Of a stretch of 64,000 nt of DNA, positions 5,576-13,638 are shown piece by piece. The translations under genes were made by a program, and so were the position numbers. Every line of letters begins with the position of its first letter. Within the stretch, counting starts at the first letter, position 1. The stretch is from Nitrospinia bacterium (lineage in GTDB: Bacteria; Nitrospinota; Nitrospinia; Nitrospinales; JAJDAT01), in NCBI GenBank assembly GCA_029261715.1, contig JAJDAT010000047.1:1-64000 (forward strand), given 5' to 3'. A model generated the notes under the pieces. It was not told where the DNA came from. It did no database searches and was given only the letters and a program-made list of their open reading frames with translations.

Positions 5576-6763
5576 TTATTGCCATAGCCTTAACCGCTCC
5601 AACAACTTGTTAAAGCTTCCGTTTAATTCTCCGATTTCATTGTTGCTTGTGACTTCTAATTTTTTTAGTTTTCTATTACCCAAAGTCAGCTCTTTGAGGC
5701 CATGATTTAGATTTTTTATGGGTTCACTGATACTTTTAGAAATTGAGGTGCCTATAACGGCGGCGATAAAACTTCCTATGATTAAAAAAGCTGCTAATAA
5801 AATTTTTAAAATCCAAATTTGATATTCCGCGTTTAGTTCGTCATCAAGTAGGATCTTTTTTTCGCTGATTAACATTTGTCCTAATTTATTGATTATTTCT
5901 ATGGCGAGTGGAGCCGCTTTAGAAGCTAAATAGAAGTTCGCTTTATTCCATTCAGGGCTTTCGCGGAGATTTATCGTTTCAGTGGTTAATGCTTTAAACC
6001 GTGTTCTTTGGATTTCAAAGATTTGAAAGTGAGCCAATTGTTTTGTGCTAAACAGTGCAATTTTAGAACCTAAATCTGCGAGACGTTCGTCATTAGTTGT
6101 AATTAATGAATCGTAACGTTTTTTATAATTGATGTCGCCAGAAAGGAGATAAGATTCAACAGTAGATAAAATTTGACTAAAGGTAACCTCTAAATTACCC
6201 AACTTTACTAGCAGGGCTTTCCTTTCGGGTGTTGCTTTGAGAGACAATTCTAAGCTTGTGATTTCATTAATGTTTGCTATGGATTCTTTAGCGAGCGGCG
6301 CAGCTTTTTCAAATAAAATTTTGTGGGCTGGTAGGTTTTCTGAAGTATTGACAATATCTTCAATTTCTTGCTGGTATTTCTTAAATTTTAGAAGGTCGTC
6401 TTTCACAGCTTGGAACAATTTAATATTATTTGAGTCGGTCCAATCCATGGATAGCTTTTCGAGATTGTCTTCGGAAGGAATAATTTCTTCTTTCCAGACA
6501 TGGTGGCGTTCCTTTTTAAATTTTTCTTCCCCTAAAAGCATCCAACCTCTTAAAGCGGCTAAAGATTCATTCACGCCGTTTAATAACTTGTGGGTCTTTT
6601 GGACCGTTACCATTCTGTGGTGGATAACTCTATCTAAAATTACATTGAATTTTTTGAGTAGGATAATAACCGCAATAATAGCTCCTGCTAAAATGATGGT
6701 GTTTATGCTAAATCCTAAATTTATTTTATTACCTACGCTTAAGTCTCTAAGTTTCTTAATCAT
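5576..6763 (-). CDS. Membrane sensor with four-helix-type periplasmic domain and HAMP, no output domain
   Basis: A 395-residue protein with a transmembrane helix at about 17-36 (IILAGAIIAVIILL). A long helical extracytoplasmic region follows (about 40-310), resembling chemoreceptor ligand-binding bundles. A second membrane helix lies at about 315-338 (ILLAAFLIIGSFIAAVIG). A HAMP domain ends the protein (ISEPIKNLNHGLKELTLGNR to IGELNGSFNKLLERL). The C-terminus comes directly after HAMP. The methyl-accepting or kinase domain expected there is absent, and no such gene lies downstream on this strand. It is either a truncated receptor or a HAMP-only signalling partner. The ribosome site is weak. 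Confidence 0.8.
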   Translation of the reverse strand: MIKKLRDLSVGNKINLGFSINTIILAGAIIAVIILLKKFNVILDRVIHHRMVTVQKTHKLLNGVNESLAALRGWMLLGEEKFKKERHHVWKEEIIPSEDNLEKLSMDWTDSNNIKLFQAVKDDLLKFKKYQQEIEDIVNTSENLPAHKILFEKAAPLAKESIANINEITSLELSLKATPERKALLVKLGNLEVTFSQILSTVESYLLSGDINYKKRYDSLITTNDERLADLGSKIALFSTKQLAHFQIFEIQRTRFKALTTETINLRESPEWNKANFYLASKAAPLAIEIINKLGQMLISEKKILLDDELNAEYQIWILKILLAAFLIIGSFIAAVIGTSISKSISEPIKNLNHGLKELTLGNRKLKKLEVTSNNEIGELNGSFNKLLERLRLWQ

Positions 6764-7092
6764 TACAAAGTTTTCCGAAAAATAATTTAATGTTTCTTAG
6801 TCAATGTATTAAATTTTATTGAGAAGAGTCGATTGATTTTTAGTTCAACGCAGGAGATTTTTAGTAGTTGTCTATGCGGAAACGTTTTATCTCAGGGATG
6901 ATTTTAAATTTTTACTAAAAAACTTAGATTAATAATAATGTTTTTGGATCGCTCATTATAACTTAATTTTTTTTTTGAATATAGTTTTCAATCCTGAAAT
7001 CAGGGTTAGAAATGAATAAAACTAGGTGAAAGAAATTGTTTTTAAGATAGATAAATAATAATTGGGAAAGTTTTTATTATTCTAGCTAATTT

Positions 7093-7132
7093 TTTAGTAA
7101 AATCCACTTGCCTTACTTAATGCTTTTAATTA
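7093..7132 (+). promoter_or_regulatory. SulP upstream motif, copy A
   Basis: TTTAGTAAAAT at 7093-7103, exactly 20 bases, then TTTTAATTA at 7124-7132. The same two blocks with the same spacing occur twice before the second SulP gene. It lies about 80 bases before the first SulP start. It could be a promoter with an operator, or two half-sites two helical turns apart. Confidence 0.6.
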
Positions 7133-7211
7133 CTACATCATGTTTCTGCCTACCGGAAGATGGACGTTAAGCTTCTAAAGTTGGAAGTTGGCGAAGAGAG
7201 TTTTGTCCCCC

Positions 7212-8921
7212 ATGAATGAAAAAAATATTCGATTCGATAATTTGAGAGGCGACCTTTTTGGGGGGATAACTGCTGGTATTGTGGCTTTGCCTTTGGCTCT
7301 AGCTTTTGGCGTTCAATCAGGTTTGGGGGCCGCTGCTGGAATGTATGGAGCTATTTTTTTGGGGCTTATTGCCGCTATTCTGGGTGGGACTGCCAGCCAA
7401 ATAAGCGGACCAACAGGCCCGATGACCGTTGTTACGAGCATAGTTATTCTGACTGCAATTGAAAATTATGGAAGTATTGAACAAGGTTTCGGGTTTATTA
7501 TCGCTATTTTTGTGCTTTCCGGGCTTATCCAAATTGCATTTGGTATTTTTAAGTTGGGCGATTATATAAGATATATTCCTTACCCCGTAGTTTCTGGGTT
7601 TATGAGTGGAATTGGGATTATTATAATCATACTTTCCTTATTCCCATTTATGGGGCAAGCCTCTCCTAAAACAGTGATTGATGTTGTCATTCAATTACCG
7701 CAAGGTTTAGCTAACGCTAATTGGGATGCGGTCATTCTTGCGAGTATGACTCTTTTTGTGATTTACCTTTTACCAAAAATTTCGAAAGCAATTCCCGGTT
7801 CATTAATCGCCTTACTAGCAATCTCTCCTATGTCGTCAATCATGGGATTTGAAGTTCCTTTGATTGGGCCTATCCCTAACGGTATACCTGAGTTAAAAAT
7901 TAGCTCGATCTTAAGTTACGATATGTCTTATTTGAGCTTATTAGTTGAGTTAGCGCTGACTTTGGCTGTTCTAGGGGCAATAGACTCTTTATTGACTTCG
8001 GTTATTGCCGACAACGTAACTAAAACCAAGCACAATAGTAATCGAGAGCTTGTTGGTCAAGGTATAGGGAATATGATTGCAGGATGCTTCGGTGGGTTGC
8101 CAGGGGCGGGGGCGACGATGAGAACTCTGGTCAATGTCAATGCCGGCGGAAAAACAAGGCTGTCAGGAGTGATACATGGATTACTACTTTTGTTAATTTT
8201 AGTGGGATTAGGAGCTTTTGCCGAACAGATTCCTTTGGCAGTACTTTCAGGGATTTTAGTCACTGTTGGTATTGGTATCATCGATTATAAGGGAATTGGA
8301 CATATTAGATCGATTCCAAAAGCAGACGCTTGGGTTATGGTTATCGTATTGGGATTGACTGTATTTGTGGATTTAATTCAAGCTGTAGCCGCAGGCATGA
8401 TTCTTTCTTCCATTTTGTTTATGAAAAAAATGGGGGATCAAATAGGGAGTGAACTTAAAGTTCATCCGTTAAGAGAGGAAATGGGAACAGAAATTTTTTC
8501 CAACGATATTTCAGAAAAGATTTATATAAACCATTTTGACGGTCCTCTATTTTTTGGTTTCGCTCGCTCATTTCAAGAAGCGGCGGAAAAATTACCGGAT
8601 ATTAAGATGGTGGTTTTAAGAATGAATGACGTTCCTCATATTGATCAATCAGGACTTTATGCTCTTGAGGAAGTTATAAGCGTTTTATCAAAAAGAAGTA
8701 TTCAAGTGATAATCACAGGATTGAAAAAACAACCCAAGAGAATGCTTCATAGAATTAATATCGTTCCGGGACTATTGTCTGAACGAAATCTTTTCCCAAC
8801 GTTTGAAGATTTTATCTCTTGGTTAAAAGAGGGGATCAGAGACTTTGGTGACTCCGAGGAGTTTTTTGGGGATTTATGTAAATTAGAAAATGAAAAAGTT
8901 GGAATAAAGTATCGTTTGTAA
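7212..8921 (+). CDS. SulP family anion transporter with STAS domain
   Basis: About 569 residues of an inner-membrane SLC26/SulP transporter, which moves sulfate, bicarbonate or related anions. The N-terminus GDLFGGITAGIVALPLALAF and the next block with ISGPTGPMTVV are the classic SulP signature helices. FGGLPGAGATMRTLVNVNAG is the core motif near TM8. A STAS domain follows (about residues 440-540, with HIDQSGLYALEEV). The start is taken as ATG 7212. A TTG at 7188 is possible and has GGAAG close by. Whether the substrate is bicarbonate (BicA-like) or sulfate cannot be told. The shared upstream motif ties its regulation to the SulP gene at 9606. Confidence 0.92.
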   Translation: MNEKNIRFDNLRGDLFGGITAGIVALPLALAFGVQSGLGAAAGMYGAIFLGLIAAILGGTASQISGPTGPMTVVTSIVILTAIENYGSIEQGFGFIIAIFVLSGLIQIAFGIFKLGDYIRYIPYPVVSGFMSGIGIIIIILSLFPFMGQASPKTVIDVVIQLPQGLANANWDAVILASMTLFVIYLLPKISKAIPGSLIALLAISPMSSIMGFEVPLIGPIPNGIPELKISSILSYDMSYLSLLVELALTLAVLGAIDSLLTSVIADNVTKTKHNSNRELVGQGIGNMIAGCFGGLPGAGATMRTLVNVNAGGKTRLSGVIHGLLLLLILVGLGAFAEQIPLAVLSGILVTVGIGIIDYKGIGHIRSIPKADAWVMVIVLGLTVFVDLIQAVAAGMILSSILFMKKMGDQIGSELKVHPLREEMGTEIFSNDISEKIYINHFDGPLFFGFARSFQEAAEKLPDIKMVVLRMNDVPHIDQSGLYALEEVISVLSKRSIQVIITGLKKQPKRMLHRINIVPGLLSERNLFPTFEDFISWLKEGIRDFGDSEEFFGDLCKLENEKVGIKYRL

Positions 8922-8934
8922 TTTGCAAGTTACG

Positions 8935-8982
8935 GTTTGGCTTACTACCAAGTCCAATTTTGCCAAGCTATTTTTTTTTTGT
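8935..8982 (+). terminator. Weak terminator after first SulP gene
   Basis: TTTGGC pairs with GCCAAG across a loop of about 20 bases and is followed by TA and a run of nine to ten T. The stem is short, so confidence is low. Confidence 0.4.
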
Positions 8983-9081
8983 GTCAATAGGTTCTGCCCT
9001 ACGGAATGAAACAATAGAATATTATTTTGATCTTTCCAATTAAATGCTAGTTTTTCAAGGTTCCCTTTAAAGAGAGTAATT

Positions 9082-9090
9082 CCCCCCCCC
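9082..9090. repeat. C9 homopolymer tract
   Basis: Nine consecutive C in an AT-rich spacer, about 110 bases upstream of SulP motif copy B. Long C tracts are prone to slippage and are rare by chance at this base composition. Confidence 0.9.
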
Positions 9091-9199
9091 TGCCAAACTT
9101 TTCTAGCTTTCTATTTTAAACTTTCAATTGTATTCAAATCCTGAAGGCGGCCTAAAAAACTGACGGTCGATAGGAATATTCTTATTTTTTGAGTCAAGT

Positions 9200-9239
9200 T
9201 TTAGTAAAATACGTTAGTATGGTTTAGTAGTTTTAATTA
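9200..9239 (+). promoter_or_regulatory. SulP upstream motif, copy B
   Basis: TTTAGTAAAAT at 9200-9210, 20 bases, TTTTAATTA at 9231-9239. GTCAA precedes it, as it does in copy C. It lies about 370 bases before the second SulP start. The sequence after it also resembles that after copies A and C, so a segment of about 75 bases appears to be duplicated. Confidence 0.6.
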
Positions 9240-9442
9240 TGATGAATAGCTTCTTTATTCTGGAGTAAAAAGAAGGAGTCCTAATAGCGATATCAAGTGG
9301 AAAAAGGTTGTTTACTTACATAGATATTTGAAACTATTGGATATTAAGAGATTTTACCCACAATTACATTCAAACTTTGAGAACGGTTTCAAATCAAACT
9401 TTATCAACAAAAATCAGAAAGTTCTTAATTTTTTGGTCAAAC

Positions 9443-9482
9443 TTTAGTAGAATCATTTAGCTTCTTCTAGTAGTTTTAATTA
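9443..9482 (+). promoter_or_regulatory. SulP upstream motif, copy C
   Basis: TTTAGTAGAAT at 9443-9453, 20 bases, TTTTAATTA at 9474-9482. It is 124 bases before the second SulP start and 243 bases after copy B. The N20 of copies B and C both end TAGTAG. Confidence 0.6.
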
Positions 9483-9605
9483 TTACATCTAATTTCTTTC
9501 TGCTGTGAGTAAATTAAGCCCTGAATATTGAGGGTTATCCGAAGAGGTTTTCCAATATAAATAAAGAAATTATTAAGTTTGATAGCCTGAGAAACGATTT
9601 TACCC

Positions 9606-11267
9606 ATGAGTATGCCAACCGAAACGATTGAAAACCCTACAGAGAACTTTATTGGGCCAATACCTCCTGCCCAAAAACCTGTTTCCACTGAAATTCCTAG
9701 AGGAAACTTTAAAGGGTTTAAAACTAATGCCAAAACGGATGTTCTCTCTGGCTTTTTAGTTTTTCTCATTGCTTTGCCACTGTGTCTAGGAATTGCTCTG
9801 GCTTCTGGGTATCCTGCAATTGCTGGTATTTTATCGGCAATTGTTGGTGGAATAGTCGCCACCTTCTTTAGCAATTCGGAGCTTACGATAAAGGGACCTG
9901 CCGCTGGTTTGATTGTTATTGCCCTTGGTTGCGTCACGGAATTTGGGTTTACTGGAGGTGTGGATTCTGCGAAGGACTATCAGGCGTATCGTTTAGCGCT
10001 TGGCGTTGGGGTTGCAGCTGGCGTTGTACAAATTTTATTCGGAGTTTTTCGGTTAGGAATCCTTGGAGAGTTTTTCCCGTTAGCGGCTATTCATGGTTTG
10101 CTAGCTTCAATTGGAATTATCATTATCGCAAAACAGTTTCCTGTGCTTCTGGGGTTACATCCAGAGGGCGCTCCGCTTGAGTTGCTCGCTAATATCCCTT
10201 CCTTCATTCTAAATATGAATCCCGGAATTGGGTCAATTGGAATGATCAGTCTTATCATTATTTCTGGCTATACTTTGATAAAAAACCCAAAGTTAAGAGT
10301 AATTCCTGCGCCTATGATGATGTTATTGATAACGGTTCCAATGGGAATATATGTTGGAATTGGCGAGGAGAGGTCTTACACGTTTAATAACCAAATTTAC
10401 CAATTAGGCGAAAAGTTTTTAGTCAACGTTCCAAGCAATTTATTCAATGCTTTGGCTTTTCCAGATTTTTCAGGATTGGCCACGGAGACTGGAATTAGAT
10501 ACGTTGTTCTGTTTGCGCTTATTGGTAGTTTGGAAAGTTTACTAAGCGCTAAAGCCGTTGATCAGATCGATCCGTGGAAGCGAAAAACAAATATGGATCG
10601 CGATATGTTAGCTGTGGGATTAGGTAATACATTGTCGGCTTTCATTGGCGGATTGCCAATGATTTCAGAAATCGTTCGGAGTAAAGCTAATATTGATAAC
10701 GGAGCAAGAACTAGGTTTGCAAATTTTTTTCATGGGTTACTTTTACTATTTTGTGTTGCCTTGATCCCAGGGATAATTAATCAAATTCCACTAGCTGCTT
10801 TGGCGGCGTTATTGGTCGTTACAGGTTTTCGTCTAGCCTCTCCTAAAGAGTTTGTGCATATGTATCACTTAGGAAAAGACCAGTTCATTATTTTTCTGTC
10901 TACAGTAATTGGCGTATTAGCTACTGATCTTTTAAAAGGAATTGCTATAGGAATTGGAGCTAGAATTATCATCCATCTGATCAATGGAGTTCCCATTCGT
11001 TCATTCTTTAAATTGAATGCTCAGGTCGTGCATGAAAGTGATCAATCCGTCACGATTCATATACCAGAGGCAGCTATTTTTAGTACTTGGATTCCTTTGC
11101 GAAAGCGTCTTCACCGTTTCCATCAAGAGGGGAAGAAGGTCACTCTGGATCTTTCGAAAACGCGGCATATTGACTATACGGTTAAGTCTAAGATCGATGA
11201 GTGGATAAAAGAATTCAACGAGAAAGGTCTTGAGCTGTCAGTGCGAGGTTTAGATCAGCATCACTGA
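9606..11267 (+). CDS. SulP family anion transporter, second paralogue
   Basis: A 553-residue inner-membrane transporter. After a hydrophilic Pro-rich leader of about 40 residues come TDVLSGFLVFLIALPLCLGI, a block with IKGPAAGLIVIALG, and IGGLPMISEIVRSKANIDNG. The C-terminus is a short STAS-like domain (VTLDLSKTRHIDYTVKSKI). It belongs to a different SulP subgroup from the gene at 7212, since its core motif is GGLPMISEIVRSKAN versus GGLPGAGATMRTLVN. The relic at 723-1030 (GGLPITEVIVKSSAN) resembles this subgroup more. The start is ATG 9606. A role in bicarbonate or sulfate uptake is likely, but the substrate is undetermined. Confidence 0.92.
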   Translation: MSMPTETIENPTENFIGPIPPAQKPVSTEIPRGNFKGFKTNAKTDVLSGFLVFLIALPLCLGIALASGYPAIAGILSAIVGGIVATFFSNSELTIKGPAAGLIVIALGCVTEFGFTGGVDSAKDYQAYRLALGVGVAAGVVQILFGVFRLGILGEFFPLAAIHGLLASIGIIIIAKQFPVLLGLHPEGAPLELLANIPSFILNMNPGIGSIGMISLIIISGYTLIKNPKLRVIPAPMMMLLITVPMGIYVGIGEERSYTFNNQIYQLGEKFLVNVPSNLFNALAFPDFSGLATETGIRYVVLFALIGSLESLLSAKAVDQIDPWKRKTNMDRDMLAVGLGNTLSAFIGGLPMISEIVRSKANIDNGARTRFANFFHGLLLLFCVALIPGIINQIPLAALAALLVVTGFRLASPKEFVHMYHLGKDQFIIFLSTVIGVLATDLLKGIAIGIGARIIIHLINGVPIRSFFKLNAQVVHESDQSVTIHIPEAAIFSTWIPLRKRLHRFHQEGKKVTLDLSKTRHIDYTVKSKIDEWIKEFNEKGLELSVRGLDQHH

Positions 11268-11621: not shown

Positions 11622-13007
11622 ATGTTTAAAAGTAAATTTAGAGTTTTGACCATTCCTTGGTGGCATTATTTGTTGATTGGCATTATTGGGTTAATGGTAA
11701 TTAAGGCCTTGATTATTAGCTATCAATATTCGATGCGAATGAACAGCCTTTATGCGCCCTTAATATACGCTAGCGTAGAAGTTGAACTGAATGTAACGAC
11801 AGCTCATTTACTTGTTGAAGAAATTCTAAATGGAGATCATTTCGAAGAGGAAGATGTTTGGAAGAAATATGCTCTTGCCGAATGGTATGTTCAGGCAATT
11901 CTAAATGGGGGAGAACAAGGACAAGAAAAAATCTTACCTTTGAAAGATAAAAAGCTTCGCTTTATTGTTCAAGATCTGGAGAAACGTCTTACGCAATTTA
12001 AAAATATTTCGGGCGAAAGATTGAAAAAAAGATCTGTTTCTGGGGCTGGATCTGAAATTGATCAAAGGTATAACAGAATTTTTAGAATTTTTTTAGACGA
12101 AGCGGAATCTGTTAAGAACCAACTCCAATTTGTGATGGTAGAAGACGTAAAAGACTTCCGCAATATTTTTATATCATTGTTAATAGTGGTACTAATATTG
12201 GGAATGGTTGTTATTTTTAACTTTTATCGACTGGAAAGGTTGCGCGTCAACGATATTAGGAGTCTACAGGACGCTAACGACGAGCTTCAGAGCGAGATTG
12301 AAGACCGTCGCCGAGCGGAAAATCAATTAAGAGATTCAAGAGAACAATTACGCAAATTGAGCAATCAATTACAGGTAATCCGTGAAAACGAAAAAACAAG
12401 AATCTCTAGAGAAATACATGACGAGCTTGGGCAAATTTTGACTGGATTAAAAATGGAACTATCTTGTTTGGAAGTTGAGTTAGATTCTCCAGAAATAGTT
12501 GGAAAATTGGAAGCGATGGGTGGGATGATTGATTCGACGATTAATTCTGTCCGGCGTATAGCAACTGAATTGCGTCCGCAAATTTTAGATACGTGTGGCC
12601 TTTTGGATGCTCTGGAGTGGCAAGGTATGGATTATCAAGCCAGGACTGGGATAGAATGTGAACTGGAATTACCGAAAAATTCTGTGAAATTAGACTCTCA
12701 ACTATCGACAACCATTTTTAGAATTTGTCAAGAAACTCTAACCAACGTGGCAAGACATGCAAACGCAAGCAAAGTTTCTGTGTCTTTAAAGTTTAATGAA
12801 AAAGATCTTTGTTTGCTTGTTAAGGATAATGGTAAGGGAATTGAACTTGATCAAATTTATAATTCCAATTCCTTAGGGTTGCTGGGGATCCAAGAGCGCG
12901 CTAACTATTGGGGTGGGCATGTAACGATTGACAGCGCTCCAGGAGAAGGCGCCTTATTCACGATTAATTTACCTTTAAACGGAAATCGTTCCTCAGAAAA
13001 TGTCTAA
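11622..13007 (+). CDS. NarX/DegS-type sensor histidine kinase
   Basis: A 461-residue kinase with a transmembrane helix at about 13-33, a periplasmic helical segment to about 185, and a second helix at about 187-205 (IFISLLIVVLILGMVVIF). A coiled coil leads into a HisKA_3 domain with EKTRISREIHDELGQILTGL, and the phosphoacceptor His is residue 266. The ATPase domain shows FRICQETLTNVARHANAS (N box) and DNGKGI (G1). It overlaps the next gene by eight bases, so the two form one translational unit. The signal is unknown. Proximity to SulP genes is suggestive only. Confidence 0.93.
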   Translation: MFKSKFRVLTIPWWHYLLIGIIGLMVIKALIISYQYSMRMNSLYAPLIYASVEVELNVTTAHLLVEEILNGDHFEEEDVWKKYALAEWYVQAILNGGEQGQEKILPLKDKKLRFIVQDLEKRLTQFKNISGERLKKRSVSGAGSEIDQRYNRIFRIFLDEAESVKNQLQFVMVEDVKDFRNIFISLLIVVLILGMVVIFNFYRLERLRVNDIRSLQDANDELQSEIEDRRRAENQLRDSREQLRKLSNQLQVIRENEKTRISREIHDELGQILTGLKMELSCLEVELDSPEIVGKLEAMGGMIDSTINSVRRIATELRPQILDTCGLLDALEWQGMDYQARTGIECELELPKNSVKLDSQLSTTIFRICQETLTNVARHANASKVSVSLKFNEKDLCLLVKDNGKGIELDQIYNSNSLGLLGIQERANYWGGHVTIDSAPGEGALFTINLPLNGNRSSENV

Positions 13008-13638
13008 TATAAAAGTATTAATAGCGGATGATCATGCTGTTGTGCGGCAGGGATTAAAACATATTATTGAGCGTGACTCCGGTATTGAGGTGATTGGCGA
13101 AGCTGAAAATGGTAATGAAGTTTTAGAGAGAGTTAAAGTGTTAGAGATAGACGTAATTTTAATGGACATTGAAATGCCAGAAAAAAATGGAATGGAAACT
13201 CTGGCCCACCTTAAGACATCAAATCCAAACTTACCCGTTATTATTTTAAGTATTTTTGCCGAAGAGCAATATGGTTTAAGGCTTATTCAATCGGGCGCAT
13301 CAAGTTACCTTTCTAAAACGTGCCCTCCTAGTCAACTTTTAGAAGCTATTCATAAAGTGGCTAATGGGGGAAAATACATAACTTCTTCTTTAGGGGAATT
13401 GCTTGTTAAAAATATGGACAATGAGGCGAATAAGCCTATCCATGAATCCCTCTCCAATCGCGAATATCAAATCTTTTTTATGATTGCCTCCGGCAAAAAA
13501 CAAAAAGATATAGCTTCGGAATTATCTATAAGCATTAACACGGTGAACGTTCACCGTGCGAATATTTTGAAAAAACTAAACGCTAAAAGTAATTCTGAAA
13601 TAATCCGCTATGCGCTTCAAAACGATCTCATAAAATAA
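13000..13638 (+). CDS. NarL/LuxR-type response regulator
   Basis: A 212-residue cognate regulator of the kinase it overlaps. The receiver domain (1-120) has the acidic pair (ADDH), the phosphoacceptor Asp in VILMDIEMPEKNG, and Lys in YLSKTCP. The C-terminal GerE/LuxR helix-turn-helix is LSNREYQIFFMIASGKKQKD followed by IASELSISINTVNVHRANIL. It should bind DNA as a dimer when phosphorylated. A strong terminator follows. Confidence 0.93.
   Translation: MSNIKVLIADDHAVVRQGLKHIIERDSGIEVIGEAENGNEVLERVKVLEIDVILMDIEMPEKNGMETLAHLKTSNPNLPVIILSIFAEEQYGLRLIQSGASSYLSKTCPPSQLLEAIHKVANGGKYITSSLGELLVKNMDNEANKPIHESLSNREYQIFFMIASGKKQKDIASELSISINTVNVHRANILKKLNAKSNSEIIRYALQNDLIK

Follow-up and report, generated by a model that had tools for sequence, protein, structure and literature searches.

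In the E. coli long-term experiment, an rnk-citG duplication puts citT under the rnk promoter (PMC5918244), and the activation of silent genes by tandem duplications has been reviewed (PMC11111574). Promoter propagation, or mobile promoters, in prokaryotes is attributed to Matus-Garcia et al. (2012) in the account given in PMC11111574. Among transporters, a marine nitrite oxidiser, Nitrospira marina, is reported to have sets of BicA-like SulP proteins (PMC8115632).

The locus considered here carries two SulP-family genes, SulP1 and SulP2, and lies in a 64,000-nucleotide stretch of Nitrospinia DNA, the whole of which is called the window. As judged from its sequence, the arrangement appears to be duplication-mediated promoter capture, an already known kind of event, and would be a well-preserved example of it. 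We consider it likely that a HAMP-SulP1 segment was copied before SulP2, decayed and was tandemly duplicated, and that both genes would use the same promoter type. The likeness to the rnk-citT capture (PMC5918244) and to the tandem-duplication cases (PMC11111574) is that a duplicated putative promoter, together with the truncated 5' end of its donor gene, stands before another transporter gene. Unlike rnk-citT, the present locus is ancient (60-72% identity), its copy has been tandemly duplicated again, and SulP1 and SulP2 were already neighbours and functionally related. Mobile promoters, as far as they are summarised in PMC11111574, resemble the locus in that near-copies of promoter DNA stand before non-homologous or distant genes, but the copies here are local only and accompanied by donor coding relics, with no genome-wide dispersal.

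The two SulP genes and the bipartite motif

SulP1 (7212..8921, plus strand; ATG at 7212, with the listed open reading frame starting at TTG 7188) is a BicA-like anion transporter with the Pfam domains Sulfate_transp and STAS. Among solved structures it is closest to BicA (PDB 6ki1, E 4e-97), whereas it scores 453 bits against the NCBIfam BicA model NF050096, below the cut-off of 880. SulP2 (9606..11267, plus strand; Pfam Sulfate_transp) is a divergent member of the family and much further from BicA. Participation in bicarbonate uptake is plausible. The two belong to separate subfamilies of long standing that occur throughout the order, in many cases as neighbours and accompanied by HAMP and CBS-domain genes, with orthologue identities across Nitrospinales of ~60-67% for SulP1 and 69-75% for SulP2. 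The initial annotation had rightly called them distant paralogues: they share 27% identity, and the DNA common to their upstream regions was not inherited from the ancestor of both. Directly behind SulP2 lies a NarL-type sensor kinase and response regulator pair (11622-13638), the response regulator occupying 13000-13638.

The motif TTTAGTARAAT-N20-TTTTAATTA has exact plus-strand matches at 7093-7132, 9200-9239 and 9443-9482, which bears out the earlier description of one copy before SulP1 and two before SulP2 with a constant spacing of 20; zero matches are expected in the shuffled window. A genome scan for the motif and its genomic positions had been proposed in the same annotation, and it confined the motif to this one locus: across the whole genome (5,332,540 bases), with a spacing of 18-22 allowed, the exact matches are these three only. 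When up to three mismatches were permitted genome-wide, 14 forward and 5 reverse matches were obtained, which is background, as a control pattern gave 13 and 14. An 88-position profile built from the three copies gives them 73-76 bits, and nothing else in the genome scores above 15. The exact motif was likewise absent from the 63 other Nitrospinales genomes searched. A genome-wide regulon was considered and rejected, no sites being found beyond this locus.

Duplicated leaders, coding relics and the HAMP gene

The motif is only the best-preserved core of longer duplicated DNA, and the exact 20-base spacing is explained by the shared descent of the copies. Three 88-bp cores were delimited on the plus strand: c1 before SulP1 (7066..7153; boxes 7093-7103 and 7124-7132), c2 as the outer tandem copy before SulP2 (9174..9260; boxes 9200-9210 and 9231-9239), and c3 (9417..9503; boxes 9443-9453 and 9474-9482). 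Their pairwise identities are 60% (c1/c2), 66% (c1/c3) and 72% (c2/c3).

The similarity between c1 and c3 extends well past the core. Positions 7066-7258, comprising the core, the leader, the ATG and ~16 codons of SulP1, align with 9417-9601, directly before the SulP2 ATG, at a score of 90 and with small gaps only (shuffles 34.1±5.4, 0/300 as good). The SulP1 leader (7154..7211, plus strand) is collinear with the homologous c3 leader (9504..9556, plus strand), and the leaders alone reach a local score of 44 (shuffles 22±3.8, 0/300). Outside the 88-bp core, the SulP1/c3 alignment has a global score of 25, compared with a random mean of -25.7 and a maximum of 17 among 7483 segments. A relic of SulP1 codons 1-16 follows at 9557..9604 (plus strand), in which ATG has become ATA and which abuts the SulP2 start. 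Among the 127,809 ungapped 48-mers of the window, the best match to the first 48 coding bases of SulP1 lies at 9557, with 30/48 identical positions and exact collinearity. In the SulP1 frame, the SulP2 leader reads INKEIIKFDSLRND, its counterpart in SulP1 being MNEKNIRFDNLRGD, and the relic peptide at 9557 scores 40 against a shuffle maximum of 33. By eye, the final ~17 nt of this relic look like the native ribosome-binding stretch in relatives, and they may be native SulP2 ribosome-binding DNA. Three marks of promoter capture are found together: a copy of the donor upstream region before the recipient (7066-7211 homologous to 9417-9556), truncated donor coding sequence at the junction, and a derived arrangement without counterpart in relatives. 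The flanking similarity mentioned in the initial annotation as weaker is real; its extent was understated, since the c1/c3 likeness continues through the leader into SulP1 coding sequence.

The c2 unit, beginning at 9174, repeats the c3 unit in tandem at an offset of 243 bp. Local alignment of 9174-9404 with 9417-9652 gives a score of 105 (shuffles 31.8±4.7, 0/300). Behind the c2 core, a decayed leader (9261..9404, plus strand) contains a relic of the first ~16 codons of SulP2 with a dead start, ACCCACAATT at 9356-9365 instead of ACCCATGAGT; taken by itself, this leader is matched as well by 10/3721 random segments. Both gaps, between HAMP and SulP1 and between SulP1 and SulP2, have a G+C content of ~28-31%, which might invite the view that AT-rich promoter DNA is alike by chance, but every comparison with shuffled sequence and with other parts of the genome excludes this, and we regard its probability as practically nil.

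Further evidence comes from the gene that diverges from SulP1, which encodes a HAMP/CHASE3/4HB membrane sensor-like protein without an output domain (5576..6763, minus strand; Pfam HAMP, 4HB_MCP_1 and CHASE3). Between the SulP1 stop and c2 lies a frameshifted and stopped relic of it (8955..9156, minus strand) covering ~residues 67-138. At the DNA level, the relic aligns with 6361-6563 at a score of 75 (shuffles 25.6±3.9) and 60% identity; at the protein level, it scores 92 against the window's own HAMP protein and at most 52 against the HAMP proteins of 15 relatives. The order of the relics repeats that of the divergent block, with HAMP on the left on the minus strand and the SulP1 start on the right on the plus strand, and ~500 bp missing between them. 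Because the HAMP relic and the SulP1-start copy keep this order and orientation, we read most of the 684 bp between SulP1 and SulP2 as a decayed copy of the divergent HAMP-SulP1 block, so that this intergenic region is mostly accounted for piece by piece. The relic at 8955-9156 could have come in a separate event. The shared DNA had been taken to speak against recent duplication; this reading does not hold, as the block includes the SulP1 leader and ~16 codons and has a broken HAMP piece beside it, which indicates that a segment of DNA was copied. An exactly spaced motif can thus be a duplication fossil and need not be the mark of a regulon.

What the DNA shows directly is which stretches are homologous, how they are ordered and oriented, and that they do not occur elsewhere; from this we infer the following order of events. 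A segment with the 5' part of HAMP, the divergent promoter region and the SulP1 start would have been copied next to SulP2. The copy would then have lost ~500 bp, its HAMP part becoming a broken relic and its SulP1 start codon being lost, so that the promoter region and leader of SulP1 ended up fused to the SulP2 start. Afterwards this SulP1/SulP2 fusion would have been duplicated in tandem over 243 bp to give the outer copy c2; fusion is placed first because c2 carries the relic of SulP2's first codons.

Three insertions of a mobile promoter or small transposable element would also leave a short non-coding block in triplicate, and the similar left edges of the blocks (7066, 9174 and 9417) fit such an origin. 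We nevertheless judge it very improbable, since only three copies exist, all at a single locus of the 5.3-Mb genome, and the block includes SulP1 coding DNA and lies collinearly beside a HAMP fragment, which is not the make-up of a mobile promoter or MITE. A candidate fourth copy before the HAMP gene (~6909-6938, minus strand) shows weak likeness to the c1 core, 3/500 shuffles being as good. Further TTTTTTAGTAAAA/TTTTTAGTAGTT stretches occur in the same divergent region, at 6909-6938 (minus strand) and 6861.

Across Nitrospinales families, a 4HB/CHASE3-HAMP membrane protein lacking an output domain is conserved beside SulP1 or SulP2, in many cases together with CBS-domain proteins (the window and loci L050, L053-L056, L058-L062, L064, L065, L067 and L069-L071), and it might act with the SulP transporters as a regulatory partner. 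In L069, near 9993 (minus strand), a second copy of the first ~13 codons of the HAMP gene, its start dead, stands immediately before the gene (39 bp, score 55); L050 presents a weaker case of such 5'-end duplication with a dead start near 2611.

Constraint and putative promoter function of the cores

Box 1 contains a -10-like hexamer, TAAAAT in c1 and TAGAAT in c3, that agrees with the consensus at 5/6 positions, whereas the -35 element is weak (2-3/6 at a spacing of 17-18; in c3, TTAATT 17 bp upstream), and a sigma-70 scan at 9 of 12 consensus positions lists none of the three cores. The promoter layout would be a -10-like TARAAT within box 1, a weak -35 ~17 bp upstream, and box 2 ~20 bp downstream in the early transcript, with c1 a probable promoter region. 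Since identity of c1 with c2 and c3 (60-66%) does not exceed the general level of the duplicate, HAMP and its relic being 60% identical, the case for constraint depends on the contrast between core and leader and on a run test. Identity is higher in the core than in the leader next to it for c2/c3 (72% against 44%, Fisher p 9e-5) and c1/c2 (60% against 39%, p 0.003), and less clearly so for c1/c3 (66% against 52%, p 0.08), which suggests that each of the three copies, c2 among them, has kept a functional core. Within the cores, no invariant runs are longer than the boxes (9 and 7; P 0.011 for both), though these are only mildly more invariant than expected.

Those runs could also be read as a two-part operator of a dedicated NarL- or LysR-type regulator, evolved independently before both SulP genes. 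TTAGTA is indeed frequent in both intergenic gaps, which together hold 7 within 1,132 bp against 39 across 64 kb, and candidate regulators are at hand in the NarL-type pair downstream and a LysR gene at 1571-2497. Such an operator is improbable, however, given that the genome has no further sites, let alone before several unlinked genes, that the similarity runs beyond the boxes into coding sequence, and that no NarL-type two-component pair was found beside SulP genes in the loci of relatives. The earlier proposal of a common regulator or promoter class survives in its second half: a promoter common to SulP1 and SulP2 through duplication is plausible, while a regulator with its own set of sites is not supported, since the genome and the order hold no further sites.

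With one core before SulP1 and two before SulP2, both genes would probably be transcribed from the same promoter type. For SulP2, we infer that the c2 and c3 cores may act as promoters, and transcription from c3, perhaps also from c2, is somewhat more probable than its absence. Should the copies be active, one control region acquired by duplication would govern two transporters presumed to supply carbon fixation in marine nitrite oxidisers. Box 2 and the leader would then fall in the 5' untranslated region, as would suit a conserved riboswitch-like leader RNA controlling both transporters; this is extremely improbable, as an Rfam search gave no match, the copies fold no better than shuffles and share no common structure, and relatives are without the stretch.

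The locus in relatives

The SulP1 and SulP2 leaders of the window show no consistent homology to the respective leaders of relatives, and the motif is not found elsewhere in the order; the duplication is for these reasons regarded as lineage-specific. Relatives have F(D/N)N(L/I)RGD-type sequence (FDNLRGD) as a native part of their SulP1 coding region, which points to copying from SulP1 to SulP2.

Of the ten genomes with both genes that were searched for a SulP1-start copy before SulP2, only the window's and G005 have one (negative: L050, L054, L061, L062, G003, G040, G047 and G049). In G005 (locus L056, JAJDBF010000068.1), SulP2 is preceded by 61 bp that copy the genome's own SulP1 start at 93% identity, taking in the SulP1 ribosome-binding region, the ATG and the first nine codons (11782-11842 against 9954-10013, minus strand). 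The gene order there is SulP2 then SulP1, and we hypothesize that order and scar go back to a tandem duplication of a SulP1-SulP2 pair in which the leading SulP1 body and the trailing SulP2 were lost. It is possible, though rather doubtful, that the copying of SulP1 starts before SulP2 took place separately in two or more Nitrospinales lineages (the window's and G005), through repeated selection for expressing two BicA-like/SulP transporters from one control region or because the locus is prone to duplication; the apparent recurrence is testable in more genomes. The G005 copy makes an open 45-codon leader ORF that overlaps the ATG of SulP2.

The SulP2 leaders of family f2 (L062, L064, L067, L182, L186 and L193) are unlike that of the window and have conserved promoter-like boxes, CTTAAC-N17-CACAAT; they also share GGATTNGTTTT...AGGAAACNATATCC before the ATG. 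Within SulP2 of the window, a short internal repeat of the N-terminal coding sequence (9629-9656 and 9689-9716; TEIPRGNFKGF/TENPTENFIGP-like; score 28, shuffle maximum 27) is a possible reason why its N-terminus is longer than in relatives.
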